64,000 bases of DNA from an uncultured Microbacterium sp. (GTDB lineage: Bacteria; Actinomycetota; Actinomycetes; Actinomycetales; Microbacteriaceae). The notes under the pieces were generated by a model. That model did no database searches. It saw only the letters and a program-made list of their open reading frames with translations, and was not told where the DNA came from. Numbering within the stretch: position 1 is the first letter of the stretch; each line of letters opens with the position of its first letter. The stretch spans positions 210,441 to 274,440 of the forward strand of contig CAJYJO010000013.1 in assembly GCA_913774845.1 (NCBI GenBank), written 5' to 3'. Below are positions 3,470 through 23,594 of the stretch, piece by piece. Position numbers and translations under genes: made by a program.

Positions 3470-3517
3470 CGCTTCGTTTCGCTGCGCGTGGAGTCAGCGT
3501 GCAAGAACTCGGGAGGG

Positions 3518-3590
3518 TGGGCCCCGTGGGGCTCGAACCCACGACCCGCGGATTAAAAGTCCGATGCTCTACCGACTGAGCTAGAGGCCC
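3518..3590 (-). tRNA. tRNA-Lys (anticodon TTT)
   Basis: On the minus strand a 73-nt cloverleaf folds: acceptor GGGCCTC with GGGGCCC (one G-U), D-arm AGCTCAGTCGGTAGAGC, anticodon loop CTTTTAA (anticodon TTT) and T-arm GTGGG-TTCGAGC-CCCAC. The CCA end is not encoded; the discriminator A is followed by CCC. Confidence 0.95.
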
Positions 3591-4740: not shown

Positions 4741-5343
4741 ATGATGGATGTCATGGTGATCGACGGCTTCGACCTCCCCGACGACGGGGCGGAGAACGTG
4801 GATCACGTGGGCGCCCTGCTCCAGCGCGTCGCCGGCGGTGACCGCGCCGCGTTCGCCGAGCTCTACGACACGCTGTCCGCGCGGGCGTTCGGACTGATCC
4901 TGCGCGTCCTCGTCGACCGCTCCCAGAGTGAAGAGGTCCTCCAGGAGGTCTTTCTCGAGATCTGGCAATCCGCTGAGCGCTTCACTCCGAACAGAGGTCA
5001 GGGAAGATCGTGGGTTCTCACGATCGCGCACCGACGAGCGGTGGACCGCGTGCGGTCGTCGCAGTCGAGCGTGGATCGGGATGTGCGTGCGGGATTCCGC
5101 GATATGGACGTCGCCTATGACGACGTCTCCGAAAAAGTAGAGCTCAAGATGGAAGGGCGGCGTGTCGTCGATGCACTGGCGACGCTTCCCGACGCCCAGA
5201 AGGAAGCGCTTACGCTGGCCTATTTCGGTGGGTACAGCCAAAGTGAGATCGCTACCCTCGTCGGGGCGCCGCTCGGTACGGTCAAGACCAGGATGCGCGA
5301 CGGACTGTCGCGACTGAGGATGGAAATGGGGGTGGACAAGTGA
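4741..5343 (+). CDS. sigK: ECF RNA polymerase sigma factor SigK
   Basis: 200 residues. Sigma-70 region 2 spans about residues 30-98 (RAAFAELYDTLSARAFGL to RAVDRVRSSQS), and region 4 about 142-192 with the helix-turn-helix GGYSQSEIATLVGAPLGTVK. The start follows GGAGG by 6 nt. The downstream anti-sigma gene begins inside its stop codon region (4-bp overlap), and a fasciclin lipoprotein gene is divergent. This neighbourhood supports the SigK assignment over other ECF groups. It should be held inactive by the membrane anti-sigma factor until that factor is cleaved. Confidence 0.88.
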   Translation: MMDVMVIDGFDLPDDGAENVDHVGALLQRVAGGDRAAFAELYDTLSARAFGLILRVLVDRSQSEEVLQEVFLEIWQSAERFTPNRGQGRSWVLTIAHRRAVDRVRSSQSSVDRDVRAGFRDMDVAYDDVSEKVELKMEGRRVVDALATLPDAQKEALTLAYFGGYSQSEIATLVGAPLGTVKTRMRDGLSRLRMEMGVDK

Positions 5344-6140
5344 ACGAGAGGGATTTCGCCGACCTCGCCGTCGGACATGCGCTCAACGCGCTATCCGAGG
5401 CAGATGAACGCGCGTACCAGGAGGCTCTGGCGGGTTATCCGCATTGGGACCACCACGTGCGGGATGCCGCGGACACCGCCTCGGCGATCAGCGCCTCCGT
5501 CGACCCCGTCGAACCGCCCCCGTCGATCCGTGCGTCGCTGCTGGCGCGCATCGTCGACCTTCCCCAGGCCGACTCCGTAACAGCCGGCGGACGTGACGAC
5601 GAGGACTATGCCGCCGCGGGCCCCGCTCCTTTCGAGCCGGCGCGCGAGGTCGTGCCGACTCGTGCGTCTGCGGCATCCGGATGGGGGGCGAAGCGCTGGT
5701 TCGCTCTCGCCGCCTCCTTCGCCGCGGTGCTCGTCCTCGGGTTCGGTGCGGTGACCGCCAGCCAGCTGTTCACGCCCCCGGCCGCCGTCGTGGCGCTGCA
5801 GGAGATCGAGAAGGCTCCCGACGCCCAGCAGGCCTCCGCGACGATGGCCGACGGCACTGTCGCGACCGCGCACTGGTCCCCCTCGACGGGACGCACCGTC
5901 ATCGTCGCCGACGGGATGCCGGAGCTCGCCGACGGCACGACGTACGAGCTCTGGTTCGTCCGTGACCAGACGCCGATCGCGGCCGGCACGTTCAAGCCGG
6001 GTCCCGATGGGAACGCGACGGCGGAACTCGTCGGCGAGATGCATGTCGGCGACGTCATCGCCGTCACCGTCGAACCCGACGGCGGCTCGCCCGACGGTAC
6101 GCCCAGCACTGCCCCGATCGTCGCCGTAGCCACCGCCTGA
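5340..6140 (+). CDS. rskA: anti-sigma-K factor RskA
   Basis: 266 residues. The cytoplasmic N-terminal part (about 1-115) would bind SigK, with a single membrane helix (WFALAASFAAVLVLGFGAV, about 119-140). The extracytoplasmic C-terminal domain has the RskA pattern (GTTYELWFVRDQTPIAAGTF, then VTVEPDGGSP). There is no HxxxCxxC zinc motif, as expected for RskA. It is a single-pass regulator whose proteolysis would free SigK. The GTG start overlaps sigK by 4 bp. Confidence 0.88.
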   Translation: MNERDFADLAVGHALNALSEADERAYQEALAGYPHWDHHVRDAADTASAISASVDPVEPPPSIRASLLARIVDLPQADSVTAGGRDDEDYAAAGPAPFEPAREVVPTRASAASGWGAKRWFALAASFAAVLVLGFGAVTASQLFTPPAAVVALQEIEKAPDAQQASATMADGTVATAHWSPSTGRTVIVADGMPELADGTTYELWFVRDQTPIAAGTFKPGPDGNATAELVGEMHVGDVIAVTVEPDGGSPDGTPSTAPIVAVATA

Positions 6141-8000: not shown

Positions 8001-8780
<780 letters not shown>

Positions 8781-8798
8781 GAGAGTGCCTTTCTGGGC

Positions 8799-9881
8799 TC
8801 AGCGCGCCTTGGGCGCGAACACCGCCGCCACGATACGGGCGATCAGGTTGAAGATGACGACGAGGACGACGAGCAGGAATGCGGCTCCCCAAGCCTGGGC
8901 CTGGGAGGCGTCGATGTCCTGACCCGGGAAGCTGTACGCGGTGTATGCCATGACGGGCAGGGTCTGCATCGGACCCTCGAACGGGTTGGCGTTGAAGTTG
9001 TCGGTGAAGCTCGCGGCGATGAAGATCGGCGCGGTCTCGCCCACGACGCGGGCCACCGCCAGCACGACACCGGTGATGATGCCCGAGGCGGCCGTCCGCA
9101 GCACGACCTTGAGGATCGTGGCCGAGCGGGGCACGCCCAGTGCCAGGGACGCCTCGCGCAGGTCGGCGGGGACCAGGCGCAGCATCTCCTCCGTGGAGCG
9201 GATGACGATGGGGATCATCAGCACGCACAGGGCGATGGATGCCGAGAACCCGCTGAACGCCTTCGGTCCGACGATGAGGCTGAACAGCGAGAACGCGAAC
9301 AGACCGGCGACGATCGACGGGATACCCGTCATGACGTCGACGAGGAACGTGATCGCCCGGCGCAGCGGGTTGTTCGGCTGCGCGTACTCGACCAGGTAGA
9401 CCGCGGCGAGGATGCCGATCGGCACCGAGATCAGCGCGGCGATGCCCGTGATGATGAGCGTTCCGGTGATCGCCTGCCACGCGCCGGCGGTCGCGACGAC
9501 CTCGAGCGTGTTCGGGTCGAAGGCGGTACCGCCGACCTGCGTGATGAACTGCCAGTTGACGACCTGGAGCCCCTTGGACACCACGGTCCACAGGGTCGAG
9601 ATCAGCGGCGCGACCGCGAGCAGGAAGGCCAACGTGACCAGACCGCGGACGACGCGGTCGACGGCCTTACGGCGGTTCTCGACGATCGACGAGCCCACTC
9701 CGATGGCGATCAGGTAGAGCACGGCGGTCAGGATCAGCCACACGGCGAGGTTGAAGTCGCCCATCAACAGCTGGACGCCGGCGACGACCACCGCGACCCC
9801 GGCGAGCAGCATCGGCTCGATGTAGCGGGGGAGCTGGCCGCTGGTCAGCGCGAGGGGCGCGGAGGGGGCGGTGACGGTCAT
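8799..9881 (-). CDS. pstA: phosphate ABC transporter permease PstA
   Basis: 360 residues started at the ATG that overlaps the pstC stop (ATGA). Two N-terminal helices precede the six-helix permease core with EAA-loop region LVPADLREASLALGVPRSATILKVVL. FTDNFNANPFEGPMQTLPV is a typical PstA segment. It pairs with PstC to form the membrane channel for phosphate. Confidence 0.96.
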   Translation of the reverse strand: MTVTAPSAPLALTSGQLPRYIEPMLLAGVAVVVAGVQLLMGDFNLAVWLILTAVLYLIAIGVGSSIVENRRKAVDRVVRGLVTLAFLLAVAPLISTLWTVVSKGLQVVNWQFITQVGGTAFDPNTLEVVATAGAWQAITGTLIITGIAALISVPIGILAAVYLVEYAQPNNPLRRAITFLVDVMTGIPSIVAGLFAFSLFSLIVGPKAFSGFSASIALCVLMIPIVIRSTEEMLRLVPADLREASLALGVPRSATILKVVLRTAASGIITGVVLAVARVVGETAPIFIAASFTDNFNANPFEGPMQTLPVMAYTAYSFPGQDIDASQAQAWGAAFLLVVLVVIFNLIARIVAAVFAPKAR

Positions 9882-10897
9882 GAGCGCTTGCCCTTCTTGC
9901 GGCCCTTGGCGCCCGGTCCGGTCGCGCCGATGATGTAGCGGGCGAACATGTTCACCGCGAGCGACACGACGAACAGCATCAGACCGGTGCCGATCAGCGC
10001 CGAGCGCTGCAGATCGGTGGCGATGGGGAAGTTCAGCGCGATGTTGGCCGCGATCGTCTGCGAGTTGTACCCGTCGGTGAGCAGGAGCACCGAGTAGATG
10101 AGGCTGGGGGAGAGGATGAGCGCGATGGCCATCGTCTCGCCCAGCGCGCGCCCGAGCCCCAGCAGCGTGGCCGAGACCATGCCGCTGCGTGCGTAGGGGA
10201 ACACCGCGAGGCGGATCATCTCCCAGCGGGTCGCTCCGAGCGCCAGCGCGGCCTCCTCGTGCAGACGAGGCGTCTGCAGGAAGATCTCGCGAGTGATCGA
10301 GGTGACGATCGGGAGGATCATGACGGCGAGCACGACGCCACCGGTGAACATCGTCGATCCGGTCGTCGAAACGGGACCCTGGAAGAGCGGGATCCAGCCG
10401 AGGTACTCGTTGAGGAACTGGCTCACGGGCAGCAGCAGCGGGCGCATCACGATGATGCCCCACAGGCCGAAGACGATCGAGGGGACGGCGGCGAGCAGGT
10501 CGACGATGTAGCCGAGTGCTCCGGCGATGCGGCGCGGGGCGTAGTGCGAGATGAACAGCGCGATGCCGATGGCGATGGGCGTGCCGATCACCATGGCGAT
10601 GAGCGCCGCCCAGATGCTGCCGAACAGCAGCGGACCGACGTACTCCCAGAAGCTCGACCAGGTGCGGTTCTGGTAGCCGGCGAGGTCCCCCTCGCTCCAG
10701 TTCGCCGTGATGGCGGGCAGACCCCGCAGGATCAGGAAGATCGCGACGCCGGCGAGGATGATCATGATCGACACGGCGGCGGTGGTCGACAGGCCGAGGA
10801 AGACGCTGTCGCCGACGCGACGCTTCCCGACGATGCTCGTGCGGGCGGGGGGCGGAGACGACGGGGCGGTCTCGGTGTCAGCGACGGTGTCAGTCAC
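9878..10897 (-). CDS. pstC: phosphate ABC transporter permease PstC
   Basis: 339 residues from the GTG at 10897, which has a GAGG box about 6 nt upstream; GTG at 10918 would add 7 residues. Six membrane helices, EAA-loop region EEAALALGATRWEMIRLAVFPYARSG, and AAVPSIVFGLWG are typical of PstC. A short open frame with a stronger Shine-Dalgarno ends across the start (see 10890-10925), hinting at coupled translation. It overlaps pstA by 4 bp and follows pstS after a hairpin-containing gap. Confidence 0.93.
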   Translation of the reverse strand: MTDTVADTETAPSSPPPARTSIVGKRRVGDSVFLGLSTTAAVSIMIILAGVAIFLILRGLPAITANWSEGDLAGYQNRTWSSFWEYVGPLLFGSIWAALIAMVIGTPIAIGIALFISHYAPRRIAGALGYIVDLLAAVPSIVFGLWGIIVMRPLLLPVSQFLNEYLGWIPLFQGPVSTTGSTMFTGGVVLAVMILPIVTSITREIFLQTPRLHEEAALALGATRWEMIRLAVFPYARSGMVSATLLGLGRALGETMAIALILSPSLIYSVLLLTDGYNSQTIAANIALNFPIATDLQRSALIGTGLMLFVVSLAVNMFARYIIGATGPGAKGRKKGKRS

Positions 10898-10925
10898 GGG
10901 GGACCTCGCGCTCGGCACGTGTCAT
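10890..10925 (-). CDS. possible 11-codon leader ORF upstream of pstC
   Basis: A GAGGAG Shine-Dalgarno 5 nt before an ATG opens an 11-codon frame whose TGA ends 7 nt inside pstC, whose GTG start it overlaps by 8 nt. Ribosomes ending here could restart on pstC. It may equally be chance or the trace of an old start; expression is not known. Confidence 0.3.
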   Translation of the reverse strand: MTRAEREVPRD

Positions 10926-11004
10926 GGGTGCTCCTCGATCGGGTGTTCTCTGAGGAATTCGGCTCAGCGGAGCGTTCGACGATGGTCGACCGTTCCGATC
11001 AGCC

Positions 11005-11039
11005 CGACGCGACCCGCACGGTGCGTGCGGGTCGCGTCG
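11005..11039. other. strong stem-loop between pstS and pstC
   Basis: 15-bp perfect inverted repeat (CGACGCGACCCGCAC and complement) with a 5-nt loop, 15 bp beyond the pstS stop. No T-run follows in the pstS direction. It could stop part of the transcripts or shield the 3' end of pstS mRNA, which would give more binding protein than permease. Confidence 0.6.
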
Positions 11040-11054
11040 AGTCCGAAGAGATGT

Positions 11055-12182
11055 TTACTTGATGGCCGAGAGGGTCTTGGCGGCGGCCTCGAGCACCGAG
11101 TCCGGCAGCGGGGCCGAACCGGCGTTCTTCGCCGCGACCTGCTGGCCGAGGGTGCTGGTGACGAAGCCGAGGTACGACTTCACGAGCTCGGACTGCTTGG
11201 AGTCCTTGAAGGTGGTGCAGGTGATCGCGTACGACACCAGCGGGATCGGGTAGGACTCGGCGGTCAGCTTCGAGTAGTCAAACTTCTTCGACAGGTCGCC
11301 CGTGACGCCGTTGCTGGCGTCGACCGCGGCGGCCTCGAACGTCGCGGTGACGGCCTCGGCGCTGTAGGGGACGGCGGTGCCGTTGGTCACGATCGCAGCG
11401 GCGTTGAGGTCACCGATGGCGGAGTGGTCGGCGTAGCCGATCGTGCCGGAGCCGGCCTTGACGGCCTCGACGACGCCCGAGCCGCCCTTCTGCTTCGAGA
11501 CGTTGCCCTCGATGGGCCAGTCCTTACCGGCCGGGGAGGTCCACACCGACGACTGGGTCGCGGCGAGGTAGTTGGTGAAGTTGGTGGTGGTGCCCGAGCC
11601 GTCCGAACGCGCGACGGTCGTGATGGCGCCGGCGGAGAGGGCCGTGCCGTTGTCCTTGGTGATGGCCGGGTCGGACCAGTCGGTGATCTGCAGAGCGAAG
11701 ATCTTCGCGATCGTCTCGCCCGAGAGCTTCAGGCTCGTGACGCCGGGGATGTTGAAGATGATGGCCACGCCGTCGAGGTAGACGGGGATGTTGACGCCAC
11801 CGTCGGTGCAGAGGGCCTTGGACTGAGCCGTCTGGTCCGCGTTCAGCGGGGCGTCGGAGCCGGCGAAGTCGTACGCGCCGCTGAGGAAGTTGGTGACACC
11901 GCCGCCGGAGCCCTGCGACTTGTCGTAGTTGATCGTGACGCCCTTGGCCTGGGCGTTGTAGGCGCTGGTCCACGCGGCCTGCGCGTTGGACTGGGCGCTG
12001 GAGCCACCGGCGGTGATCGTGCCCGACAGGCTGGGGTCGATCGTGAACGCCACGTCGGACGACGAGGGCGAAGAGGACGAACCCGCGGCGTCGCCGGAGC
12101 CCGAGGGGCCGGCGCAGCCGGCGAGAGTCAGGGAGGCCACGGCGGCCACGGTGCCCAGCTGGGCGAGTCGGGAGAGCTTCAC
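11055..12182 (-). CDS. pstS: phosphate-binding lipoprotein PstS
   Basis: 375 residues from the GTG at 12182, which has AAGGA 8 nt upstream; the frame is open to 12200. A lipoprotein signal ends at LAGC, followed by a Gly/Ser-rich linker. The binding-protein motifs ITAGGSSAQSNAQ, GSGGGVTNFLSGAYDFAGSDAPL and ARSDGSGTTTNFTNYL (phosphate-contacting SGT) are clear. It captures extracellular phosphate for PstCAB. A PHO box lies 92 bp upstream, so it should be induced by low phosphate. Confidence 0.96.
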   Translation of the reverse strand: MKLSRLAQLGTVAAVASLTLAGCAGPSGSGDAAGSSSSPSSSDVAFTIDPSLSGTITAGGSSAQSNAQAAWTSAYNAQAKGVTINYDKSQGSGGGVTNFLSGAYDFAGSDAPLNADQTAQSKALCTDGGVNIPVYLDGVAIIFNIPGVTSLKLSGETIAKIFALQITDWSDPAITKDNGTALSAGAITTVARSDGSGTTTNFTNYLAATQSSVWTSPAGKDWPIEGNVSKQKGGSGVVEAVKAGSGTIGYADHSAIGDLNAAAIVTNGTAVPYSAEAVTATFEAAAVDASNGVTGDLSKKFDYSKLTAESYPIPLVSYAITCTTFKDSKQSELVKSYLGFVTSTLGQQVAAKNAGSAPLPDSVLEAAAKTLSAIK

Positions 12183-12248
12183 GATGTGAATCCTTCGCAT
12201 GTTTGGGGACGGAACCCGGTGCAGGGCTCGACGGGAACGCTAAACATC

Positions 12249-12273: not shown

Positions 12274-12291
12274 GGTGAACGGAAGGTGAAC
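12274..12291 (-). promoter_or_regulatory. PHO box (11-bp direct repeats) for pstS
   Basis: GGTGAAC at 12274-12280 and again at 12285-12291, 11 bp apart; on the minus strand this reads GTTCACC-N4-GTTCACC, the direct-repeat site known for actinobacterial PhoP/RegX3 regulators. It is 92 bp before pstS and 51 bp before the divergent NRPS-like gene. Confidence 0.8.
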
Positions 12292-12331
12292 CGGGGCGGC
12301 CGTTCCGGGGTGTTTTCCTGGGCGCTGTACT

Positions 12332-12338
12332 GTTCACC
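12332..12338 (+). promoter_or_regulatory. extra PHO half-site next to the NRPS start
   Basis: GTTCACC in the orientation opposite to the pstS box, 3 bp before the GTG at 12342. It overlaps TACTGT (12328-12333), a possible -10 element. A lone heptamer is weak evidence by itself. Confidence 0.35.
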
Positions 12339-12341
12339 CCC

Positions 12342-15300
12342 GTGACGATCTCTGCTTCTCGCGCGCAGGCTCCTCTGGATCGGACGGATGCCGCGCCACC
12401 CGCGCGCACGCTCATCGACCTTCTCGCGGGAGTGGCCGCACGGCATCCGGAGGCGTCCGCGATCGATGACGGATCCGGGGCTCTCAGCTACCGGGAACTG
12501 CTCGCACGCGTGTGGCGGACCGCGGCGGCCCTCCACGAGGCCGGCGTGCGCCGGGGCGACCGCGTGGGGGTGCGGATGCCGTCGGGATCGAAGGAGCTGT
12601 ACGTCTCGATCCTCGCCGTGATGGCCGCCGGAGCCGCCTACGTCCCCGTCGACGCCGACGATCCCGACGAGCGGGCGCGTCTCGTCTTCGGCGAAGCCGG
12701 GGTGCGGGGCATCATCACGGGCGCGGGGGAGTACGTCCCCCGTGATCCGGATGCCGACCTCGTCCCCCTCTACGACGGTGCGGCGCCCCACCCCCGCACG
12801 AACGCGGTACCGATCGTCGCTCCGCCCGCCGTCGATGACGACGCATGGATCATCTTCACCTCCGGGTCGACGGGCGTGCCGAAGGGTGTGGCCGTCACGC
12901 ACCGCTCGGCCGCGGCGTTCGTCGAGGCCGAGGGGCGCATCTTCCTCCGGGGTGAGCCGCTCGGTCCGGGCGATCGGGTTCTGGCCGGACTGTCCGTCGC
13001 CTTCGACGCGTCCTGCGAGGAGATGTGGCTCGCCTGGGGGCACGGGGCGTGCCTCGTGCCGGCACCGCGGGCGCTCGTGCGCTCGGGGGAGGACCTCGCC
13101 CCCTGGCTGCTGCGGCAGGGCATCAGCGTCGTCTCGACCGTTCCGACCCTTGCGGCGATGTGGCCGGCCGAGGCGATCGAGAACGTGCGTCTGCTGATCT
13201 TCGGCGGCGAGGCGTGTCCTCCCGAGCTCGCGGCGCGTCTGGTGGCCGAGGGGCGCGAGGTGTGGAACACCTACGGCCCCACCGAGGCGACGGTCGTCGC
13301 GTGCGCTGCGCCGCTGGATGGTTCCCTCCCGGTGCGCATCGGTCTGCCGCTCGACGGGTGGGCGCTGGCCGTCGTCGACGCGGACGGCTCACCGGTGGCC
13401 GAGGGCGAGGTCGGGGAGCTCATCATCGGCGGCGTGGGGCTGGCCCGGTACCTCGATCCGGCGAAGGATGCCGAGAAGTACGCGCCCATGCCCTCTCTCG
13501 GGTGGGAGCGGGCGTACCGCTCCGGCGACCTCGTGCGTTTCGACTCCGCGGGACTGGTGTTCCAGGGGCGCGCCGACGACCAGGTGAAGGTCGGCGGGCG
13601 GCGCATCGAACTCGGCGAGGTGGAGTCGGCGCTGCAGGACCTCGACCGGGTGAGCGCGGCGACCGTCGCGGTGCGCACCACCGACGCCGGGGTGCCCGTG
13701 CTCGTGGGATACCTCGTGATGGACGACGGTGTCGAGCTGGACCGGCACGCGGCCCGGGCGGCGCTGGCGGAGCGTCTGCCCGCCGCGACCATCCCCCTCC
13801 TCGGGGTGGTGGACGCCCTTCCCGTGCGCACGTCGGGGAAGGTCGATCGGGATGCGCTCCCGTGGCCGTTGCCGGGCGCCGCCGTTCCCGCCGCGACCGA
13901 CTTCTCGCCCGACGAGACGTGGCTCGCGGAGCAGTGGCAGGCGGTCCTCGGCCTGAGCGTGACCGAGAGGAAGGCCGACTTCTTCGACCTCGGTGGGGGA
14001 TCGCTCGCCGCCGCACAGCTCGTGTCGCGCATCCGGGCACGGGTGCCGGAGTTCTCCGTCGCCGACATCTACGACGTGCCGCGCCTCGGGGCGATGGCGA
14101 AGGCCCTCGGGCCGCAGTTGCAGGAGGACGCGCCGACGGCGTTCCACCGTGCCGCGCCCACCCCACGCGCGACGCAGTGGGTGCAGACTCTGCTGGGTGC
14201 GCCGCTGTTCATCCTCTCGGGGGTGCGCTGGCTGCTGTATCTTCTGACCGCCTCGGCGATCCTGCGCCTGATGCCGGGTTTCGACGTGCTGCCGTCGGTG
14301 CCCCCGGCGGTGCTCGTCGTCGGGCTCCTGGTCTTCGCGACGCCGTTCGGACGCATGGCCATCGCCGTGGCATCCGCTCGTCTGCTCCTGGGCGGGGTGC
14401 GTCCCGGGGACTACCCACGCGGTGGGTGGGTGCACGTGCGCCTGTGGCTCGCCGAGCAGATCGCGGATCAGGTGGATGCCGTCGGCCTTGCCGGCGCGCC
14501 CTGGGTGTCGTACTACGCCCGCGCGTTGGGTGCGCGGATCGGGCGCAACGTGGACCTGCACGCGCTGCCTCCGGTGACGGGCATGCTCGTCGTCGGGGAC
14601 GGGGCGTCGATCGAGCCGGAGGTCGACCTGACCGGCTGGTGGATCGATGGTGATCTCGTGCGCATCGGCGAGGTGCGCATCGGCGCCGGGGCCACCGTCG
14701 GATCCCGTTCGACGCTCGCACCCGGGACGCGCATCGGTCGTCGCGCCGAGATCGCGCCCGGCTCCGCCGTCTTCGGTCGTGTCAAAGCCGATCAGTCGTG
14801 GGCCGGGTCGCCGGCGGTGCGCGTGGGCGGAACGACGCGAGGATGGCCCGCGGAGCGCCCCGCTGCGCCGACCCGCTGGCTGTGGGCCTACGCCGCGTCG
14901 GCCGTGGTGCTCGCCCTGCTGCCGCTCGCCGCGTTCACGGTGGGTGGTCTCGTCCTGGCCCAGGGGATGCGCGGCGCCGACTCCCTCCTCGAGGCCGTCG
15001 GGTCGGGGTTCGTCTGGCTCGTGCCGGCCGTCGCGGTCACAGGCGTCGTGTTCGCGGCATCCGTCGTTCTTCTCGTGCGGGTGCTGTCGATCGGTCTCAC
15101 CGAGGGCACCCATCCGGTGCGCAGCCGGGTCGCGTGGCAGGCGTGGACGATCGAGCGGCTGCTGGACGCCGCGCGCACGATCCTCTTCCCGCTGTACTCC
15201 TCGCTGTTCACCCCCGTGTGGTTGCGCCTGCTCGGTGCGCGCGTCGGACGTGATGTCGAAGCGTCGACGGTTCTGCTCCTGCCGTCGATGACCCGTATCG

Positions 15301-16286
15301 AGGACGGGGCGTTCCTCGCCGACGACACCATGGTCGCGTCGTACGAATTGCACGCTGGATGGATGCGGATCGGGCCCGTGCGGATCGGCAAACGCGCGTT
15401 CCTCGGCAACTCGGGGATGGCGGCTCCGGGACATCGCGTTCCCCGTGACGGTCTGGTCGCCGTGCTGTCGGCGGCGCCGGCGAAGGCGAAGCCCGGGTCG
15501 TCCTGGCTCGGTTCGCCTGCCGTGCGTCTGCGCCGCCTGTCGGCCGAGGGTGACGAGTCGCGCACGTATCGCCCCAGCGCGCCGTTGCGTCTCGCGCGCA
15601 CGCTGTGGGAGCTCTGCCGGTTCGTGCCGGTCGTGGTGACCTGCGGGATCGGGCTGGGCGTGCTCTTCACCCTCGCCGCGCTCTGGTCGGCGTGGGGTCC
15701 GGTGTGGGCGTTGCTGCTGTCGGGGATCGTGATGCTGGCCGCGGGCGCGGTCGCGGCGGGCGTGTCGACCGCGGCGAAGTGGGCGATCGTCGGTGTCATC
15801 CGCGCCGGGGAGCAGCCGCTGTGGTCGAGTTTCGTGTGGCGCACCGAGGTGTCGGACACCTTCACCGAGATGGTCGCGGCTCCGTGGTTCGCGCGAGCCG
15901 CCGCGGGGACTCCGGCTCTCGCCGTGTGGTTGCGCTCGTTGGGGGCGAGGATCGGTCGCGGCGTGTGGTGCGAGAGCTACTGGCTGCCCGAGCCCGATCT
16001 CGTCACGCTCGGGGACGCGTCGACCGTCAACCGGGGGTGTGTCGTGCAGACGCACCTGTTCCATGATCGAATCATGAGCATGGACACCGTCGAGCTCGAG
16101 CCGGGGGCCACCCTCGGTCCGCACAGCGTGGTGCTGCCGGCATCCACGCTCGGAGCGCACGCCACCGTCGGGCCCGCGTCGCTCGTCATGCGCGGTGAGA
16201 CCGTGCCGGTCGGCTCGCGGTGGAGCGGCAATCCCATCGGCCCGTGGCGTGCGGTCAAGGTGCGCGCGTACCAGTCGACGACGTGA
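12342..16286 (+). CDS. Pls/PosA-type non-ribosomal peptide synthetase (A-PCP-TM-LbH)
   Basis: 1314 residues. An adenylation domain (about 25-510) carries IIFTSGSTGVPKGVAVTH, NTYGPTEATVVAC, RADDQVKVGGRRIELGEVE and the A10 lysine K500. A carrier domain (about 520-595) has the phosphopantetheine site GGGSLAAAQL with Ser554. There is no condensation or thioesterase domain; instead three left-handed beta-helix (hexapeptide) domains (about 715-830, 965-1070, 1210-1310) alternate with paired membrane helices, the architecture of epsilon-poly-lysine synthetase. Pocket residues by hand alignment to GrsA: D222 A223 E226 S265 I286 G288 T310 V318 V319 K500, suggesting a basic amino acid such as lysine. 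The product is inferred, not shown. Confidence 0.88.
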   Translation: MTISASRAQAPLDRTDAAPPARTLIDLLAGVAARHPEASAIDDGSGALSYRELLARVWRTAAALHEAGVRRGDRVGVRMPSGSKELYVSILAVMAAGAAYVPVDADDPDERARLVFGEAGVRGIITGAGEYVPRDPDADLVPLYDGAAPHPRTNAVPIVAPPAVDDDAWIIFTSGSTGVPKGVAVTHRSAAAFVEAEGRIFLRGEPLGPGDRVLAGLSVAFDASCEEMWLAWGHGACLVPAPRALVRSGEDLAPWLLRQGISVVSTVPTLAAMWPAEAIENVRLLIFGGEACPPELAARLVAEGREVWNTYGPTEATVVACAAPLDGSLPVRIGLPLDGWALAVVDADGSPVAEGEVGELIIGGVGLARYLDPAKDAEKYAPMPSLGWERAYRSGDLVRFDSAGLVFQGRADDQVKVGGRRIELGEVESALQDLDRVSAATVAVRTTDAGVPVLVGYLVMDDGVELDRHAARAALAERLPAATIPLLGVVDALPVRTSGKVDRDALPWPLPGAAVPAATDFSPDETWLAEQWQAVLGLSVTERKADFFDLGGGSLAAAQLVSRIRARVPEFSVADIYDVPRLGAMAKALGPQLQEDAPTAFHRAAPTPRATQWVQTLLGAPLFILSGVRWLLYLLTASAILRLMPGFDVLPSVPPAVLVVGLLVFATPFGRMAIAVASARLLLGGVRPGDYPRGGWVHVRLWLAEQIADQVDAVGLAGAPWVSYYARALGARIGRNVDLHALPPVTGMLVVGDGASIEPEVDLTGWWIDGDLVRIGEVRIGAGATVGSRSTLAPGTRIGRRAEIAPGSAVFGRVKADQSWAGSPAVRVGGTTRGWPAERPAAPTRWLWAYAASAVVLALLPLAAFTVGGLVLAQGMRGADSLLEAVGSGFVWLVPAVAVTGVVFAASVVLLVRVLSIGLTEGTHPVRSRVAWQAWTIERLLDAARTILFPLYSSLFTPVWLRLLGARVGRDVEASTVLLLPSMTRIEDGAFLADDTMVASYELHAGWMRIGPVRIGKRAFLGNSGMAAPGHRVPRDGLVAVLSAAPAKAKPGSSWLGSPAVRLRRLSAEGDESRTYRPSAPLRLARTLWELCRFVPVVVTCGIGLGVLFTLAALWSAWGPVWALLLSGIVMLAAGAVAAGVSTAAKWAIVGVIRAGEQPLWSSFVWRTEVSDTFTEMVAAPWFARAAAGTPALAVWLRSLGARIGRGVWCESYWLPEPDLVTLGDASTVNRGCVVQTHLFHDRIMSMDTVELEPGATLGPHSVVLPASTLGAHATVGPASLVMRGETVPVGSRWSGNPIGPWRAVKVRAYQSTT

Positions 16287-17581
16287 GCGCGGCCGATCCC
16301 TACGCCCCGCAGAGCGGCGACACGTCGTACGACGTCGAATCGTACGATCTGTCGCTGAGCTATCGGGTGCGCACGAACCGTCTCGAGGGTGTGGCCCGGA
16401 TCACAGCGGTCGCGCGCGAGTCGGCGACCTCGATCGCCCTCGATCTCGTCGGCTTGCGCACGTCGCGGGTGCGTGTCGACGGGGAGGTCGCGCGATTCGC
16501 GGCCGGGCCACGCATTCTTCGGGTGACTCCGCCGCGGGCTCTCGTCGCCGGCGACCGGTTCGAGGTCGACGTGACGTACGCGGGGGCCCCCTCGCCGCGG
16601 CGCTCCCGCTGGGGCACGGTGGGCTGGGAGGAACTGACCGACGGCGCGCTCGTCGCCGGGCAGCCGATCGGTGCTCCGACGTGGTTCCCCTGCAACGATC
16701 GGCCCGACAACCGGGCGCGGATGCGCATGGAGATCACCGTGGACGACGACTATGCCGTGGCCGCCACGGGCGTCGCGTCCGAGGTCACGCGTCGCGGAGG
16801 CCGGGCGTCGACGACGTTCACGTCGGAGGTGCCGACGGCGACATATCTCGCTGCCGTGCACATCGGGCGCTATCGTACCCGCGCGCTCGCGGGGAGTGGA
16901 GTGGACGTGGTGCCCCCGGTGCACGTCACCGCGCCGCCCGCCCTGACGGCCGGCGCGGATCGTGCCTTCGCCGCGGTACCCGACATGCTGCGTCTGTTCG
17001 ACCGGGTCTTCGGTGCGTACCCGCAGGAGAGCTGCACGCTGGTCGTGACCGCCGACGAACTCGAGATCCCCCTCGAGGCGCAGGGGCTCGCCGTGTTCGG
17101 GATGAACCACCTCGTGCCCGCCGCGCAGCGCCTGGTCGCGCACGAGCTGGCGCACCAGTGGTTCGGCAACAGCGTCGGCATCGGTCGGTGGAGCGACATC
17201 TGGCTCAACGAGGGTTTCGCCTGCTATGCCGAATGGCTGTGGTCGGAGGCGTCGGGAGGGATGAGCGTCGACGCCTGCGCCGTAAGCCACTACGGGCGTG
17301 TGGCCGCGCAACCGCAGGACCTGCGCGTGGTCGATCCGGGGCCCGACGACATGTTCGACGACCGGGTGTACAAGCGCGGTGCGCTGACCCTGCACGCGCT
17401 GCGCGGGCACCTCGGTGACGTGGCGTTCTTCGAGCTGCTGCGCTCGTGGGTGGCCGAGCATCGACATGGCCTCGTGTCGACGGACGACTTCCGCGCCGCG
17501 GTGGGACGAGCCGGGGGAGAGGATGCCATGGCGCTGCTCTCGACCTGGATCGATCACGTCGAGCTGCCCCCGCGCGTCTGA
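16283..17581 (+). CDS. M1-family zinc aminopeptidase, short form
   Basis: 432 residues from a GTG overlapping the NRPS stop by 4 bp. The zinc motif HELAHQWFGN followed 18 residues later by Glu in NEGFACYAEW gives the HExxH-E metal site; the exopeptidase loop is GMNHLV rather than GAMEN. No signal peptide is visible and the long C-terminal domain of PepN is missing, as in many actinobacterial short M1 enzymes. Tight coupling to the Pls-type synthetase suggests it trims or degrades the peptide product, as I recall for the polylysine-degrading aminopeptidases of producers. Confidence 0.9.
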   Translation: MSAADPYAPQSGDTSYDVESYDLSLSYRVRTNRLEGVARITAVARESATSIALDLVGLRTSRVRVDGEVARFAAGPRILRVTPPRALVAGDRFEVDVTYAGAPSPRRSRWGTVGWEELTDGALVAGQPIGAPTWFPCNDRPDNRARMRMEITVDDDYAVAATGVASEVTRRGGRASTTFTSEVPTATYLAAVHIGRYRTRALAGSGVDVVPPVHVTAPPALTAGADRAFAAVPDMLRLFDRVFGAYPQESCTLVVTADELEIPLEAQGLAVFGMNHLVPAAQRLVAHELAHQWFGNSVGIGRWSDIWLNEGFACYAEWLWSEASGGMSVDACAVSHYGRVAAQPQDLRVVDPGPDDMFDDRVYKRGALTLHALRGHLGDVAFFELLRSWVAEHRHGLVSTDDFRAAVGRAGGEDAMALLSTWIDHVELPPRV

Positions 17582-17619: not shown

Positions 17620-17815
17620 CCGGTGGGCTGGGCTGGGCTTGGGGCTGGGCTGGGTGGCGGGCTGGGGTGGGGGCTGGGCTGAGTGGCGGGCTGGGCTGGC
17701 CGGGCAGGCTGGGCGTGGGGCTGGGCTGGCCGGGCGGGCTGAGCTTGGGGCTGGGCTGGGCGGGCGGGCTGAGCTTGGGGCTGGGCGAGCTGGGCAGGCG
17801 GGCTGAGGACGTGGG
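17620..17815. repeat. G-rich low-complexity repeats (GGGCT-type)
   Basis: Degenerate tandem copies of GGGCTGGGCTT-like units on the plus strand, with runs of GGG/GGGG separated by 2-4 nt that fit the G-quadruplex pattern. They fill most of the 503-bp gap 17582-18084 between the M1 peptidase and the HNH gene. No gene is supported in the gap. Confidence 0.75.
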
Positions 17816-17823
17816 TAGGTGGG

Positions 17824-17865
17824 CTTGGTCCTTGGTCCTTGGTCCTTGGTCCTTGGTCCTTGGTC
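17824..17865. repeat. six perfect tandem copies of a 7-bp unit
   Basis: CTTGGTC repeated six times head to tail with no spacer. The rest of the gap to 18084 holds no further repeat or gene that I can support. Confidence 0.95.
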
Positions 17866-18084: not shown

Positions 18085-19485
18085 TCAGAAGGGTGCCGGG
18101 TGTCGTCCGAGGATCTCGGAGGGAGGGGAATCGTCCTCGACGAAACGGACGGCCGGTGAGTACGGGAGCGGGTGGTCGGTGTAGACCCGCCCGGTGGGTG
18201 AGGTGAACTCGATCACCCCGCCGGGGAGTTGCCTCACCTGCCACCGGGTGAACTGCTTCTGGGTGTGGTGGCGTTGGCAGAAGTGGCAGAGGTTGCACAC
18301 GTGGGTTTTGCCGCCGAGGGCGTAGTCGAGGTTGTGGTCCACTTCGCAGCGCACGGCGGGGGTGGTGCAGCCGGGCCAGCGGCAGTGTCGGTCGCGGGCG
18401 CGGAGGTACCGGTCGATCGCGGCGGTCCGTTGGTACGTGTCGGTGCAGAGCACGGCCCCGGTGACGGGGTGGGTGAGCACCCGGTCCCACGGCACCCTCG
18501 TCGCTTCGGTGAGGCGTTGGGCAGTGTCGATGTCGATGGGGCCGTGTCCGACGAGCTCCGCCGGGTCGATGTTCTCGCGCGCCGGGTCGAGCACGGAGAG
18601 CGCGGGGACGACGACTTGCACGCGGGCGCGGATGGCGCCGAGGGTGCCGGGGCCGTCGTCGGTGCGGGTGGGGTCGGCGTCGGGAGCGGCGGTGAGGAGG
18701 AGGTCGGCGAGGATGTCGGCCCGCACCTGATCTGCGCTTCGCAGATCCGGCTTGACCCCGCCTCCTTCTTCCCCCCCTGGTGGCACGCTCGCCGGCTCGG
18801 CCGACGCAGGCGGTGGCGTGTCGGTGTTCTCCCGCGCGTCGATCAGCGCCCGCGACTGCTGCGTCAACCGGTCGGAGATCCCCACCGCCAACACCGTCGG
18901 TAGCGTCGCGATGAGATCCGACATCCCGTTCTCACCCCGCACCACCCGGACACACCGCTGCTCACGCCCGCGCTGGTGCCGTTCCGTGATCGTCGTCGGC
19001 TGCAACCGCTCCGCCAACGTCGCCAACCGTGCCCGCAGTCGTCCGGCACTCAGTCCTTCAGCGGTGGCGACGGCGAGCACGTCGAACTCTCCACGCTTAT
19101 CCACCGGCACCGGGGTACCGGCATCGACTATGGCCTGCACATGAGCCCGGGAGAGTGCTCCCGCCTCCCACGCGTCGACCGTCGCCGGGAAGTGATCGAC
19201 GAGCGTCATGGCCCGCCCGATCTGCGCCTGCACCGACCGATCCGACAGGCACTCCGCGGCCGCGATCTCGGACGCGACCTCGCGAAGCGCCATCTCCGCC
19301 GCCCGCGACGATGCCCGCTGCCCCGCAAGGGCGTCGAGGGCCAGACGACCCGCCCGGGCCAGCGCCCGGGTTCTGCGGGCTTCGGCGGCCGCGAGAGCGG
19401 CATCCGCGTCCAGCACCTCGCGCAGCACGACCACAAGCGGGTCGGACCCGTCAGGTGGTGGAGGCGAAGGTATCGAGAAGCTCAT
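18085..19485 (-). CDS. DUF222 / HNH endonuclease, 13E12 repeat family
   Basis: 466 residues. An N-terminal DUF222 region (about 15-330) contains an Ala-rich helical part and a Pro/Gly-rich, probably disordered linker (about 218-245). A C-terminal HNH nuclease domain (about 350-410) has the metal and zinc elements CRWPGC, CEVDHN and CNLCHFCQRHHTQK. This family occurs in multiple copies in actinobacterial genomes, is linked to the mobile 13E12 element and has no settled role. Repeats flank it on both sides. The ATG has TAGCAT 6 nt upstream. Confidence 0.92.
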   Translation of the reverse strand: MSFSIPSPPPPDGSDPLVVVLREVLDADAALAAAEARRTRALARAGRLALDALAGQRASSRAAEMALREVASEIAAAECLSDRSVQAQIGRAMTLVDHFPATVDAWEAGALSRAHVQAIVDAGTPVPVDKRGEFDVLAVATAEGLSAGRLRARLATLAERLQPTTITERHQRGREQRCVRVVRGENGMSDLIATLPTVLAVGISDRLTQQSRALIDARENTDTPPPASAEPASVPPGGEEGGGVKPDLRSADQVRADILADLLLTAAPDADPTRTDDGPGTLGAIRARVQVVVPALSVLDPARENIDPAELVGHGPIDIDTAQRLTEATRVPWDRVLTHPVTGAVLCTDTYQRTAAIDRYLRARDRHCRWPGCTTPAVRCEVDHNLDYALGGKTHVCNLCHFCQRHHTQKQFTRWQVRQLPGGVIEFTSPTGRVYTDHPLPYSPAVRFVEDDSPPSEILGRHPAPF

Positions 19486-19497: not shown

Positions 19498-19672
19498 GCC
19501 GCAACCTCCGACATTCGAGCCCTGACCGGCACTTTCTGTGGATAAGTCGAGTGAGGAGGCGGCTGTGGAGAAGTCGTCACCGCCGAGTATGGCGCGCGAG
19601 ATCGAATCCATCTGGCGCGCCTCTCACCTCACCTCGGCGCAGCTCGCCTCAGCCCCACTCCCGGCGCCCCGC

Positions 19673-19724
19673 GCTCACCCAAGCCGCTCACCCAAGCCGC
19701 TCACCCAAGCCGCCCACCCAAGCC
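19673..19724. repeat. four tandem copies of a 13-bp unit
   Basis: GCTCACCCAAGCC three times, then a fourth copy with one change. It lies in the 439-bp gap 19486-19924, which holds no gene I can support; the gap is filled mainly by this repeat and the 38-bp repeat. Confidence 0.93.
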
Positions 19725-19797
19725 GCCCCACACCCCACCCGGAGCCTCGCGCCCACCACGCGCACACACATCGCAGCACCCCACCCGCCACGCCCTC

Positions 19798-19934
19798 GCG
19801 ACGGAACGCGAAGCCCCGCCCCCCTCCTCGAACGCGAAGCCCCGCCCTCTCGCCCCACGCCCTCCTCGAACGCGAAGCTCCGCCTTCTCACCCCACGCCC
19901 TCCTCGAACGCGGAGCCCCGCCTCTCACTCCACG
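19798..19934. repeat. 38-bp imperfect tandem repeat running into a coding end
   Basis: Three copies start at 19822, 19860 and 19898 with 38-bp period, preceded by a partial copy. Each contains TCCTCGAACGCG followed by a C-rich half. The last copy covers the stop codon of the phosphopantetheinyl transferase gene. Confidence 0.9.
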
Positions 19935-20434
19935 CGCCTGCACCCCACCGCCACCGCGACCACGACGCCCTCCGGTCCGTCGACGTCCCAGCCGGCCCAT
20001 CCGCCGACCCCGTCGATCGAGGCGGTCCATCCGTCCGCTCTTTCGTGCACCTCGACCCGTCGCGGATCGACCGTCAGTCCGCGTCCGTCAGCCTTCAGAA
20101 CAGCCTCGACGCGCGCCCAGGCCCGATCCGGGGAGGCGGAAGCGAGTATCCGGTCCATGCCCGCGGCGCCGCGAGGGACGGCATCCACCCCGATGCCGCG
20201 TCCGGCGCCGGTCGACACCGCGGCCACGGCCCACCCTCCGGCGTACGAGACGGACGCGGCGGCATCCCGATCACGCACCCGGATGCGACCGTGTGCGCCT
20301 CCGCACGCCGGGCAGCGCGAGACGACGTCGGCGCCGGGCAGCAGCTCGGCGAGCAGAGCGCGAGACGTCTCGCGACGCGCGGTCGCCGGCGGGATCCGAC
20401 GCCACGCGACGCGGATCCCGGCGGGCAGGGTCAC
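19925..20434 (-). CDS. 4'-phosphopantetheinyl transferase, Sfp type
   Basis: 169 residues from a GTG that overlaps the upstream gene by 4 bp. Family signatures are GIGVDAV (magnesium-binding Asp) and WARVEAVLKADGRGL, the WxxKEA-type motif with Arg/Val variation. CPACGGAHGRIRV near the N-terminus matches the usual CxxCGxxHG segment. The enzyme attaches phosphopantetheine to carrier proteins, and the only carrier domain in the window is in the NRPS about 3.6 kb away. It is short for the family (often about 220), and its 3' end merges with tandem repeats. Confidence 0.82.
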   Translation of the reverse strand: MTLPAGIRVAWRRIPPATARRETSRALLAELLPGADVVSRCPACGGAHGRIRVRDRDAAASVSYAGGWAVAAVSTGAGRGIGVDAVPRGAAGMDRILASASPDRAWARVEAVLKADGRGLTVDPRRVEVHERADGWTASIDGVGGWAGWDVDGPEGVVVAVAVGCRRVE

Positions 20435-21429
20435 ACCCGTGGCTCGTGCGTCTCGATCGCGACGATTCCGGCACCCGGGTGCTCGACCGGCACGTGCACG
20501 ACCGAGAACGCGGCGGGGGACAACGCCGACGCGCTGCCGAGGTACGAGCCGCTCATGGTCCCGGTGGCCAGAGCGAGCTCGTGGAGGATGTCGGGCAGCA
20601 CCGGACCGTGGCTGGTGAGGACGACGGGTTTGCGGGCGCGCACGCGCTGACCGACGACGGTGCGCGCATCGGCGCGTCCGTCTTCCCAGGCGTCCTGACT
20701 GATCTCGGGGCAGAGGTGCAGGCGCTGTCCGAGCGCCTGGGCGATCGGGGTCGCCGTGCGCACGCACCGTTCGGCGGGACTGGAGTACACCCGTCGCACG
20801 CCGAAGGCGAGGAGCGGACCGACGATGGATGCCGCTTGCCGGCGTCCGCGAGGGGTGAGCGGCCGTGCGCCGTCGTCGCCCTCCCAGTCGTCGCGGGAGA
20901 GCGCCTTGCCGTGCCGGAGCACGACGAGGGGGAAGGTCGGGAGGGCGTTCTCGTCGACGATCCGCGTGAACTCGTCGAGGATCTCGATGTCGACGGGGTA
21001 GCTGAGATGCTTGCGCGCCTTCTTCAGGCTCATCCATTCGATCGCGGCGACCTCTTTGTTCGGGACGAACGAGGAGGTGCGCACCGCGGCCTCGGTGGCC
21101 TCGGCGGCCCAGTAGTGCACGATCTTCGTGCGCGAGTTCGGCATCCGATATCGAGAGACTCCGACCGGCACCCCAAGGGAGACTCGGATGCCGGTCTCTT
21201 CCCGGATCTCGCGCACGGCGGTCTCGGCCAGCGTCTCACCGGGGTCGACCTTGCCCTTGGGCAGGGTGAGGTCGCGGTATTTCGTGCGGTGGATGATCAG
21301 CACGCGGAGTTTGCCGTCGACCCGTCGCCAGACCACACCGCCCGCGGCGTAGACGGCCGTCTCTTTGGCGGAGGTGGTCACCTCGCCGTCCTCGCGGATC
21401 ATGACCGCACCACCCGCATGAGGCGTCAC
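20431..21429 (-). CDS. NUDIX hydrolase fused to histidine phosphatase (MutT1-like)
   Basis: 332 residues from the GTG overlapping the ppk stop; ATG at 21402 is another possible start. The N-terminal NUDIX domain has the box [23 protein letters not shown]; the C-terminal half is a histidine phosphatase with [10 protein letters not shown]. The same fusion is MutT1 in mycobacteria, which degrades 8-oxo-dGTP and diadenosine polyphosphates. Position between ppk and the transferase in a head-to-tail set suggests one operon. Confidence 0.9.
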
Positions 21430-23594
21430 CGGACCGTCCGCGTGCGTCGACGCCGCTGGACCTGCGCCATAGTGTGCTCCTGCAGGTCGATGAGCGGGGC
21501 GCCTGCGGCGTCGACGCTGTGGCGTGTCCACTCGCCCTCGGGGCCGAGGTGCCACGAACTGGTGCCGTCGTCGATGGCGAGGTCGAACAGCGCGGTCAGC
21601 TCGCGCAGCTGGTTCTCGTCGACGACGCGGACGAGCGCCTCGACGCGACGGTCGAGGTTGCGGTGCATCATGTCGGCGCTGCCGATGAAGATCTGCGGGT
21701 CGCCGTCGTTCGCGAACGAGAAGATGCGCGAGTGCTCGAGGTAACGACCGAGGATCGAGCGCACCGTGATGTTCTCGCTCATGCCCGGCACACCCGGCTT
21801 GATGGAGCAGATGCCGCGCACCCAGATCTCGACGGGGACGCCCGCCTGGCTCGCGCGGTACAGCGCGTCGATGATCTGCTCGTCGACCATCGAGTTGACT
21901 TTGATGCGCACTCCCGAGGGCTTGCCCTCGAGGGCGTTGCGGCGCTCCTTGTCGATGTGGCGCAGCAGACCCTTGCGCAGGTGCAGGGGAGCGACGAGCA
22001 GGCGCTTGAACTTCTTCTCGATCGCGTACCCGCTGAGCTCGTTGAACAGGCGGGTGAGGTCGCGGCCGACCTGGTCGTCGACGGTGAAGAGCCCGAAGTC
22101 TTCGTAGATGCGGCTCGTTTTGGGGTTGTAGTTGCCCGTGCCGACGTGGCTGTAGTGGCGCAGCCGCCCCTCTTCCTCGCGGATGACGAGGGCGAGCTTG
22201 CAGTGCGTCTTGAGCCCGACGAGTCCGTAGACCACGTGAACGCCGGCCTTCTCGAGCTTGCGCGCCCAGACGATGTTGTTGGCTTCGTCGAAGCGGGCCT
22301 TCACCTCGACGAGGGCGAGCACCTGCTTGCCGGCCTCGGCCGCGTCGATCAGGGCCTGCACGATGGGGCTGTCTCCCGACGTGCGGTACAGCGTCTGTTT
22401 GATGGCGAGCACGTGCGGGTCGCGCGCGGCCTGCTCGAGGAAGGCCTGGACGCTCGTCGCGAACGACTCGTAGGGGTGGTGCACGAGCACGTCGGCCTTG
22501 CGGATCGCCCCGAACAGGTCGGCGCGTCCGTTCTGCTCGGGCGGCTGGAATGCCAGCGCCGTCTTGGGCACGTGCGGCGGATAGTGCAGGTCGGGCCGGT
22601 CGATGCGCGACAGGTCGAACAGACCGCGCAGGTCGAGGGACCCGGGGAGGCGGTACACCTCCTGCTCGGTGATGTCGAGCTCGCTCAGCAGCAGCGCGCG
22701 CGTGACGTCGTCCATGTCGTCGGTGATCTCGAGGCGGATCGGCGGACCGAAGCGTCGGCGCAGCAGCTCGGCCTCGAGGGCCTGGATGAGGTTCTCGGTC
22801 TCGTCCTCCTCGATCGTCATGTCTTCGTTGCGGGTGAGGCGGAAGGCGTGGTGATCGAGCACCTCCATCCCGGGGAAGAGGTCTTCGAGGTGGTTCGAGA
22901 TGAGCTCTTCGAGCGGCAGGTAGCGCACTCCCGGCCCGTCTCCGGCGACCTCGACGAAGCGCGGCAGCATGGGCGGCACCTTCAGGCGCGCGAACTCCTG
23001 GCGCCCGGTGCGGGCGTTGCGGATGCGGATCGCCAGGTTCAGCGACAGCCCCGAGATGTAGGGGAACGGGTGCGCGGGGTCGACCGCGAGCGGCATGAGC
23101 ACGGGGAAGACGTTGCGCTGGAAGTACTCGGTGAGCCGCGCCGCCGTGTCGGCGTCGAGAGAGTCCCAGGAGACGACCTCGATGCCCGCCTCGGCGAGGG
23201 CCGGGCGCACCTTCTCGGTCCAGGCCGCGGCGTGGCGCAGCTGCAGGCGGTGCGCTTCGGCCGAGATGTCGGCGAGCACGTCGAGCGGGGCGCGGCCCAC
23301 GTTCGTGGGCACGGCCAGGCCCGTCACGATGCGACGCTTGAGGCCGGCTACGCGCACCATGAAGAACTCGTCGAGGTTGCTGGCGAAGATGGCCAGGAAG
23401 TTCGCGCGCTCCAGGACCGGGACCGTCGGGTCTTCGGCGAGCTCCAGCACCCGCTGGTTGAACGCCAGCCAGCTCAGCTCTCGATCGAGGTAGCGGTGAT
23501 CGGGCAGCTGGTCGTCTGCCGCCTCGACAGCCTCGTCGAAGTCGTCGTCGTCGGCATCGCCGAGGCCGGCATCCAGCGCGTCGTGTTCGATCAT
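21426..23594 (-). CDS. ppk: polyphosphate kinase 1
   Basis: 722 residues. After an acidic N-terminal extension come the four PPK1 domains; [14 protein letters not shown] opens the N domain, the phospho-His lies in [15 protein letters not shown], and [17 protein letters not shown] is in the C-terminal kinase domain. It makes and uses polyphosphate from ATP, a phosphate store. It lies 56 bp downstream of the glnR-like gene. The ATG has AATGAT 6 nt upstream, a weak -10 candidate. Confidence 0.96.

Follow-up and report, generated by a model that had tools for sequence, protein, structure and literature searches.

Gene content of the locus

We analyzed a 64,000-nucleotide stretch of Microbacterium DNA, called the window below. 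It contains a gene, pls, for a single-module synthetase and, on the same strand, a gene for an M1-family zinc peptidase. A DUF222 gene and a gene for a putative phosphopantetheinyl transferase lie further downstream in the opposite orientation. The group is flanked by phosphate uptake genes on one side and by a nudix-SixA gene and a polyphosphate kinase gene (ppk) on the other (Table 1).

Table 1. Positions of genes, protein domains and sequence elements in the window
Feature	Position	Strand	Basis or remark
pstSCAB phosphate uptake genes, left flank of cassette	8001..12200	-	
PHO-type box, GTTCACC-N4-GTTCACC	12274..12291	-	Shared pstS-pls intergenic region, 51-68 nt before pls
pls, candidate single-module NRPS-like epsilon-poly-L-lysine synthetase (A-T-terminal domain)	12342..16286	+	TIGR02353, 707 bits; 7wew alignment
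Adenylation domain of Pls, residues ~10-513	12369..13880	+	Domain search; 7wew alignment
Carrier (thiolation) domain, residues 527-589, Ser in LGGGS	13920..14108	+	PF00550, 9.1e-10
Pls terminal domain, residues 614-1299, three related beta-helix domains and three hydrophobic helix pairs	14181..16238	+	
M1-family zinc peptidase	16283..17581	+	PF01433, 2.3e-26; PF17900, 3.1e-11; HELAH and Glu motifs
DUF222 gene, between peptidase and transferase genes	18085..19485	-	PF02720, 4.7e-14; outside conserved cassette
Sfp-like 4'-phosphopantetheinyl transferase, convergent to pls-M1	19925..20434	-	Weak PF01648, motifs, co-occurrence with pls
Right flank: nudix-SixA gene (~20431-21381) and ppk (~21426-23594)	20431..23594	-	PPK domains

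We compared this arrangement with three collections of loci. In a genus sample of 198 genomes, 106 had a Pls terminal domain scoring over the cut-off, as did 99 of 249 in a family sample and 73 of 296 in a class sample. Forty regions were hand-picked from the 106 genus and 99 family carriers. A further 39 regions (L164-L202) were reduced to 36 by setting aside L190 and L191, which had no pls match, and L192, which had no aligned pocket; the 36 comprise 34 regions from other families and two genus carriers without the transferase. The third collection consisted of named loci, of which we used the best 80 of 444.

Domain make-up and substrate pocket of the synthetase

A first-pass annotation, made from the sequence alone, had described one adenylation and one carrier domain, no condensation or thioesterase domain, and three beta-helix domains parted by membrane helices. 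Our analysis bore out this layout. Adenylation and carrier domains are followed by a terminal domain of the TIGR02353 family, the make-up that defines Pls proteins, and the domain search found neither a condensation nor a thioesterase domain in Pls. Hydropathy, repeat comparison and an AlphaFold2 model place six membrane segments, arranged as three pairs, around three tandem soluble domains, and the model of the terminal domain agrees with three beta-helix domains. A fold search with this model effectively probed the first beta-helix domain only (model residues 107-234), for which many acetyltransferases tie; whole-model Foldseek TM-scores were low, at 0.09-0.15 of the query among the matches listed. 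The carrier-domain serine is kept in all 40 genus and family relatives.

The best match to the adenylation domain among PDB sequences is 7wew, the epsilon-poly-L-lysine synthetase of Streptomyces albulus (E 8.9e-181), with 312 of 487 aligned residues identical (64%). The ten pocket residues that had been aligned by hand in the first pass (D222, A223, E226, S265, I286, G288, T310, V318, V319 and K500, giving DAESIGTVVK) match 7wew at every position. All 40 genus and family relatives carry the same code, as do 35 of the 36 further relatives whose pocket could be aligned; both sets were found with the terminal-domain model, and the single exception reads DFEYLGTVTK. It also occurs in 80 of 80 named loci (best 80 of 444), a partly selected set in that one of the two patterns used to find it, ASCEEMW, spans two pocket positions. 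The closest named relatives over pls, among these best 80 of 444, are Microbacterium loci that are 89-90% identical.

Other enzymes of this family carry different codes in the published excerpts consulted for comparison (PMC10522769). Lysine enzymes have Ala at pocket position 2. The delta-polyornithine synthetase PosA has Met218, His260, Asn280 and Ser313, the PDAP and PDAB synthetases have Phe at position 2, and the epsilon-poly-beta-lysine synthetase reads DGESISVVNK, with Gly at position 2. The ornithine-type pocket, with Met at position 2 and the other PosA residues, is absent from the window's Pls, which has Ala223, Ser265, Ile286 and Val319. Because the pocket equals that of S. albulus Pls at ten of ten positions and the literature codes of other enzymes differ, lysine is the best reading of the predicted substrate. 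The alignment to Pls and PosA that the first-pass annotation had proposed as a check thus upheld its lysine-type assignment, and we set aside polyornithine, beta-lysine, diaminobutyrate and diaminopropionate as leading product readings.

A TACTGT element lies 8 nt ahead of the pls GTG (12328-12341) and would suit a leaderless transcript. A sigma-70 scan of the region upstream of pls found no promoter. A tRNA-Lys (ttt) gene is present at 3516-3590, about 9 kb from pls, probably by coincidence.

The coupled M1 peptidase

The peptidase gene lies directly downstream of pls and overlaps it by 4 bp (GTGA), as had been noticed in the first pass. In S. albulus, pldII likewise overlaps pls by 4 bp and forms one operon with it (PMC4361855, in part), and pldII is described as translationally coupled to pls (PMC9223678, in part). 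An M1 gene was found downstream of pls in all 40 genus and family regions, 29 of which have an in-frame start giving the 4-bp overlap, and in 33 of the 36 further regions. The 80 named loci (best 80 of 444) all have one, within 0.6 kb in 79 cases and at 2.1 kb in one.

The GAMEN position of the predicted peptidase reads IPLEA, and no signal peptide was evident by eye. The available portion of PMC9223678 places PldII outside the membrane and models its metal sites as D44, T45, D173 and K174, which differ from the M1 motif found here. The same M1 family adjoins pls in seven of eight loci of a family that we presume to be Streptomycetaceae (f25). We presume from position, overlap and the f25 gene that the M1 peptidase is the ortholog of S. 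albulus PldII.

A phosphopantetheinyl transferase linked to pls

The transferase matches PF01648 weakly (8.4e-4, 19.8 bits, below the gathering score of 25). Asp84, Trp106, Glu110 and Lys114 are invariant in 22 aligned rows. At the second acidic position of the GxDxE motif, the window and its three closest relatives (L082-L084) have Val, and the other 18 of 22 rows have Glu. Sfp-type transferases are marked by conserved acidic residues and a W..xEAxxK motif.

We built a transferase profile from the 22 cassette neighbors and searched the 198 genus genomes. Of the 106 pls carriers, 104 gave a strong match, and the 92 non-carriers gave none (Fisher p 3e-55, kinship ignored); the limit of the strong class was set by eye after the scores were seen, where they leave a gap from E 1.7e-23 to 1.2e-20. 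This co-occurrence rejects a chance neighborhood for the Sfp-type gene at 19925, which the first-pass annotation had named as part of the candidate locus. At E 1e-5 the profile matches 139 of 198 genomes; 35 fall outside the strong class, 34 of these being non-carriers, and we take their weaker matches for a second kind of transferase. In 101 carriers the transferase shares a contig with pls, always convergent and 1.3-4.2 kb downstream of the terminal domain. In three others a different contig carries it, and two of the 106 lack the cassette transferase.

Beyond the profile search, tblastn placed a transferase near pls in 26 of 40 genus and family regions. One was also near pls in 10 of 34 other-family regions and in 30 of 80 named loci (best 80 of 444), the last with 33 hits of which three lie upstream or on the pls strand. 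In nine genus regions where pls lies away from pst, pairs of regions share similarity that begins somewhere from -630 to +70 relative to the pls start and ends at about +5,030-5,710; this comparison excludes pairs sharing their whole surroundings, and one pair has an extra short match at -733. Given these bounds, the cassette genes travel as a unit. We conclude that pls, the M1 gene and the transferase gene behave as a single cassette, present in some species and absent from others.

The genome contains two further transferases, one of them about 12 kb from a separate multi-module NRPS. Among the titles and abstract openings listed by searches of open-access literature, none stated a transferase for Pls. 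The DUF222 gene has no match between the M1 and transferase genes in the 40 genus and family regions. In the window it is flanked by short tandem-repeat arrays (periods 5-38) at 17624-17865 and 19672-19935.

The site between pst and ppk

The cassette lies between pstS and nudix-ppk in 11 of 20 genus carrier regions and elsewhere in nine. Twenty pls-lacking genomes were hand-picked from the 92. In 19 of them pstS is directly beside nudix-ppk; in the twentieth, the stretch examined holds only the pst genes. In a tree given here as drawn, with no support values, the pst-site pls genes and that of the window form one group, which includes one gene from another site (L079).

Two further observations concern the surroundings. 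Among relatives that share this gene order, many have pstS, pstC and pstA genes with only 39-59% identity to the window's copies and a pstB gene with 84-90% (window 8799-12200); the permease and binding-protein genes look as if exchanged. A loose pattern, which misses some copies, picked out in 18 of 140 loci (for example L079:13320-14126 and L211:4995-5963) a gene that has a Rho_N/SAP-like motif at its end and often stops where pls starts. With this pattern, neither the 20 pls-lacking regions nor the surroundings of the window's pls gave such a gene.

A PHO-type box and possible phosphate control

The intergenic region shared by pstS and pls contains a box that reads GTTCACC-TTCC-GTTCACC and is oriented towards pstS. 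The name PHO box and its consensus come from Streptomyces work. All 20 pls-lacking genomes have such a box ahead of pstS, with one mismatch at most, and it is therefore the genus's pstS box.

A first look at 29 non-pst family and genus regions found a box with at most three mismatches in six, compared with 2% of shuffles, and led us to test the named loci. After removal of 10 loci with pstS or ppk matches from the best 80 of 444, 70 remained. In 10 of these 70, a box with at most two mismatches in 14 lies on the pls strand in the 150 nt ahead of the gene, at -44 to -116. The corresponding counts were 1 of 70 for the opposite strand, 11 of 13,716 for background windows and 1 of 468 for other genes at these loci (kinship ignored). 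The box-bearing records are from Planctomonas, Leifsonia, Plantibacter, Cryobacterium, Arthrobacter, Pseudarthrobacter (two), Rhodococcus (two) and Microbacteriaceae bacterium VKM Ac-2855.

No box was found near pls in the nine non-pst genus regions (one weak match at -604), in three named non-pst Microbacterium loci scanned, in the S. albulus pls promoter as printed in the excerpted text of PMC8117764, or at the eight presumed Streptomyces loci of f25. Three of 32 other-family loci had one with at most two mismatches, all from family f33. A conserved PHO box before pls everywhere is thus not supported. In a high producer, RegX3-SenX3, alkaline phosphatase D and a phosphate-binding protein were up, which the authors read as insufficient phosphate supply (PMC10157215, in part). 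Among the titles and abstract openings listed by searches of open-access literature, none stated phosphate or PHO-box control of pls. The box positions and the pst-ppk site suggest that pls may be under phosphate control.

A model for the locus and its alternatives

The best explanation of these results is that the locus makes epsilon-poly-L-lysine, using a cassette of synthetase, M1 peptidase and transferase, and we put its probability at about 0.92. The adenylation domain would activate L-lysine, and the carrier domain would hold it as a thioester after priming, probably by the convergent downstream transferase. The membrane-bound terminal domain, with its three hexapeptide-type beta-helix domains, would join epsilon-amino groups to alpha-carboxyls iteratively and probably deliver the chain outside. 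The M1 zinc peptidase, co-translated with Pls, may trim or degrade the product for self-protection, turnover or length control. Because of the cassette's position between pstSCAB and nudix-ppk, next to a PHO-type box, we also propose, less surely, that it would be expressed under phosphate limitation.

Architecture alone cannot separate this model from one in which a same-family enzyme polymerizes ornithine, beta-lysine, diaminobutyrate or diaminopropionate, and members with other products exist (PMC10522769, in part). The pocket speaks strongly against such a product, being equal to that of Pls throughout and having the lysine-type Ala at position 2 in place of Met, Phe or Gly, and we regard it as very improbable. 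A less remote alternative is that the enzymes are capable and the strain makes no epsilon-poly-L-lysine, the locus being silent or decaying and the cassette drifting to loss. According to the available text of PMC8117764, native Corynebacterium variabile made no detectable epsilon-poly-L-lysine, nor did C. glutamicum expressing the gene, and the window's locus may therefore be silent too; the presence of pls over the cut-off in 106 of 198 genomes of the genus sample and the missing acidic residue of the window's transferase are in keeping with this. Against it stand frames, motifs and pocket that are intact in the relatives examined and a transferase retained by 104 of 106 carriers, and we consider a silent locus rather unlikely.

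We give about even odds to the pst-ppk location being incidental, with the PHO box serving pstS alone and pls lacking phosphate regulation in this organism. The orientation of the window's box, its presence before pstS in all 20 pls-lacking genomes and the lack of a box near pls in the genus's non-pst regions, in the printed S. albulus promoter and in f25 all fit an incidental site, but the same-strand boxes at 10 of 70 named non-pst loci, set against their controls, do not. At its widest, the phosphate interpretation would make polylysine synthesis a phosphate-starvation response in many actinobacteria, with pls a Pho-regulon gene whose cassette settled between transporter and ppk, and phosphate limitation the missing trigger for "silent" coryneform pls genes. 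We offer this full version tentatively, with the odds somewhat against it.

Significance and comparison with known systems

Epsilon-poly-L-lysine is an antimicrobial polymer used commercially as a food preservative. Its regulation and natural role are called less well understood in the excerpted text of PMC8117764. The synthetase-peptidase pair is already known in kind; the new, testable parts are the transferase cassette and a possible phosphate trigger. If pls is phosphate-controlled, growing carriers at low phosphate could wake silent producers and show the polymer's purpose. The cassette transferase would be a natural partner gene for heterologous expression.

The window's synthetase resembles S. 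albulus Pls in adenylation-domain sequence, in its identical ten-residue pocket and in the family of its terminal domain, and the two loci share a peptidase gene overlapping pls by 4 bp (PMC4361855, in part). The window differs in its convergent transferase, none having been found near pls in the presumed Streptomyces loci of f25, and in its pst-ppk location and adjacent PHO-type box. Coryneform loci, such as that of C. variabile, have the same kind of gene and a neighboring peptidase gene; the C. variabile Pls, with its peptidase gene in the operon, made epsilon-poly-L-lysine in Streptomyces coelicolor, and Microbacterium is among the genera listed with Pls homologues (PMC8117764, in part). 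The available portion of that paper reports neither a transferase cassette nor a phosphate link. PosA, the delta-poly-L-ornithine synthetase of Acinetobacter baumannii, shares family and layout with the window's synthetase, but its pocket differs at several positions and posA is described as a single-gene operon (PMC10522769, in part).
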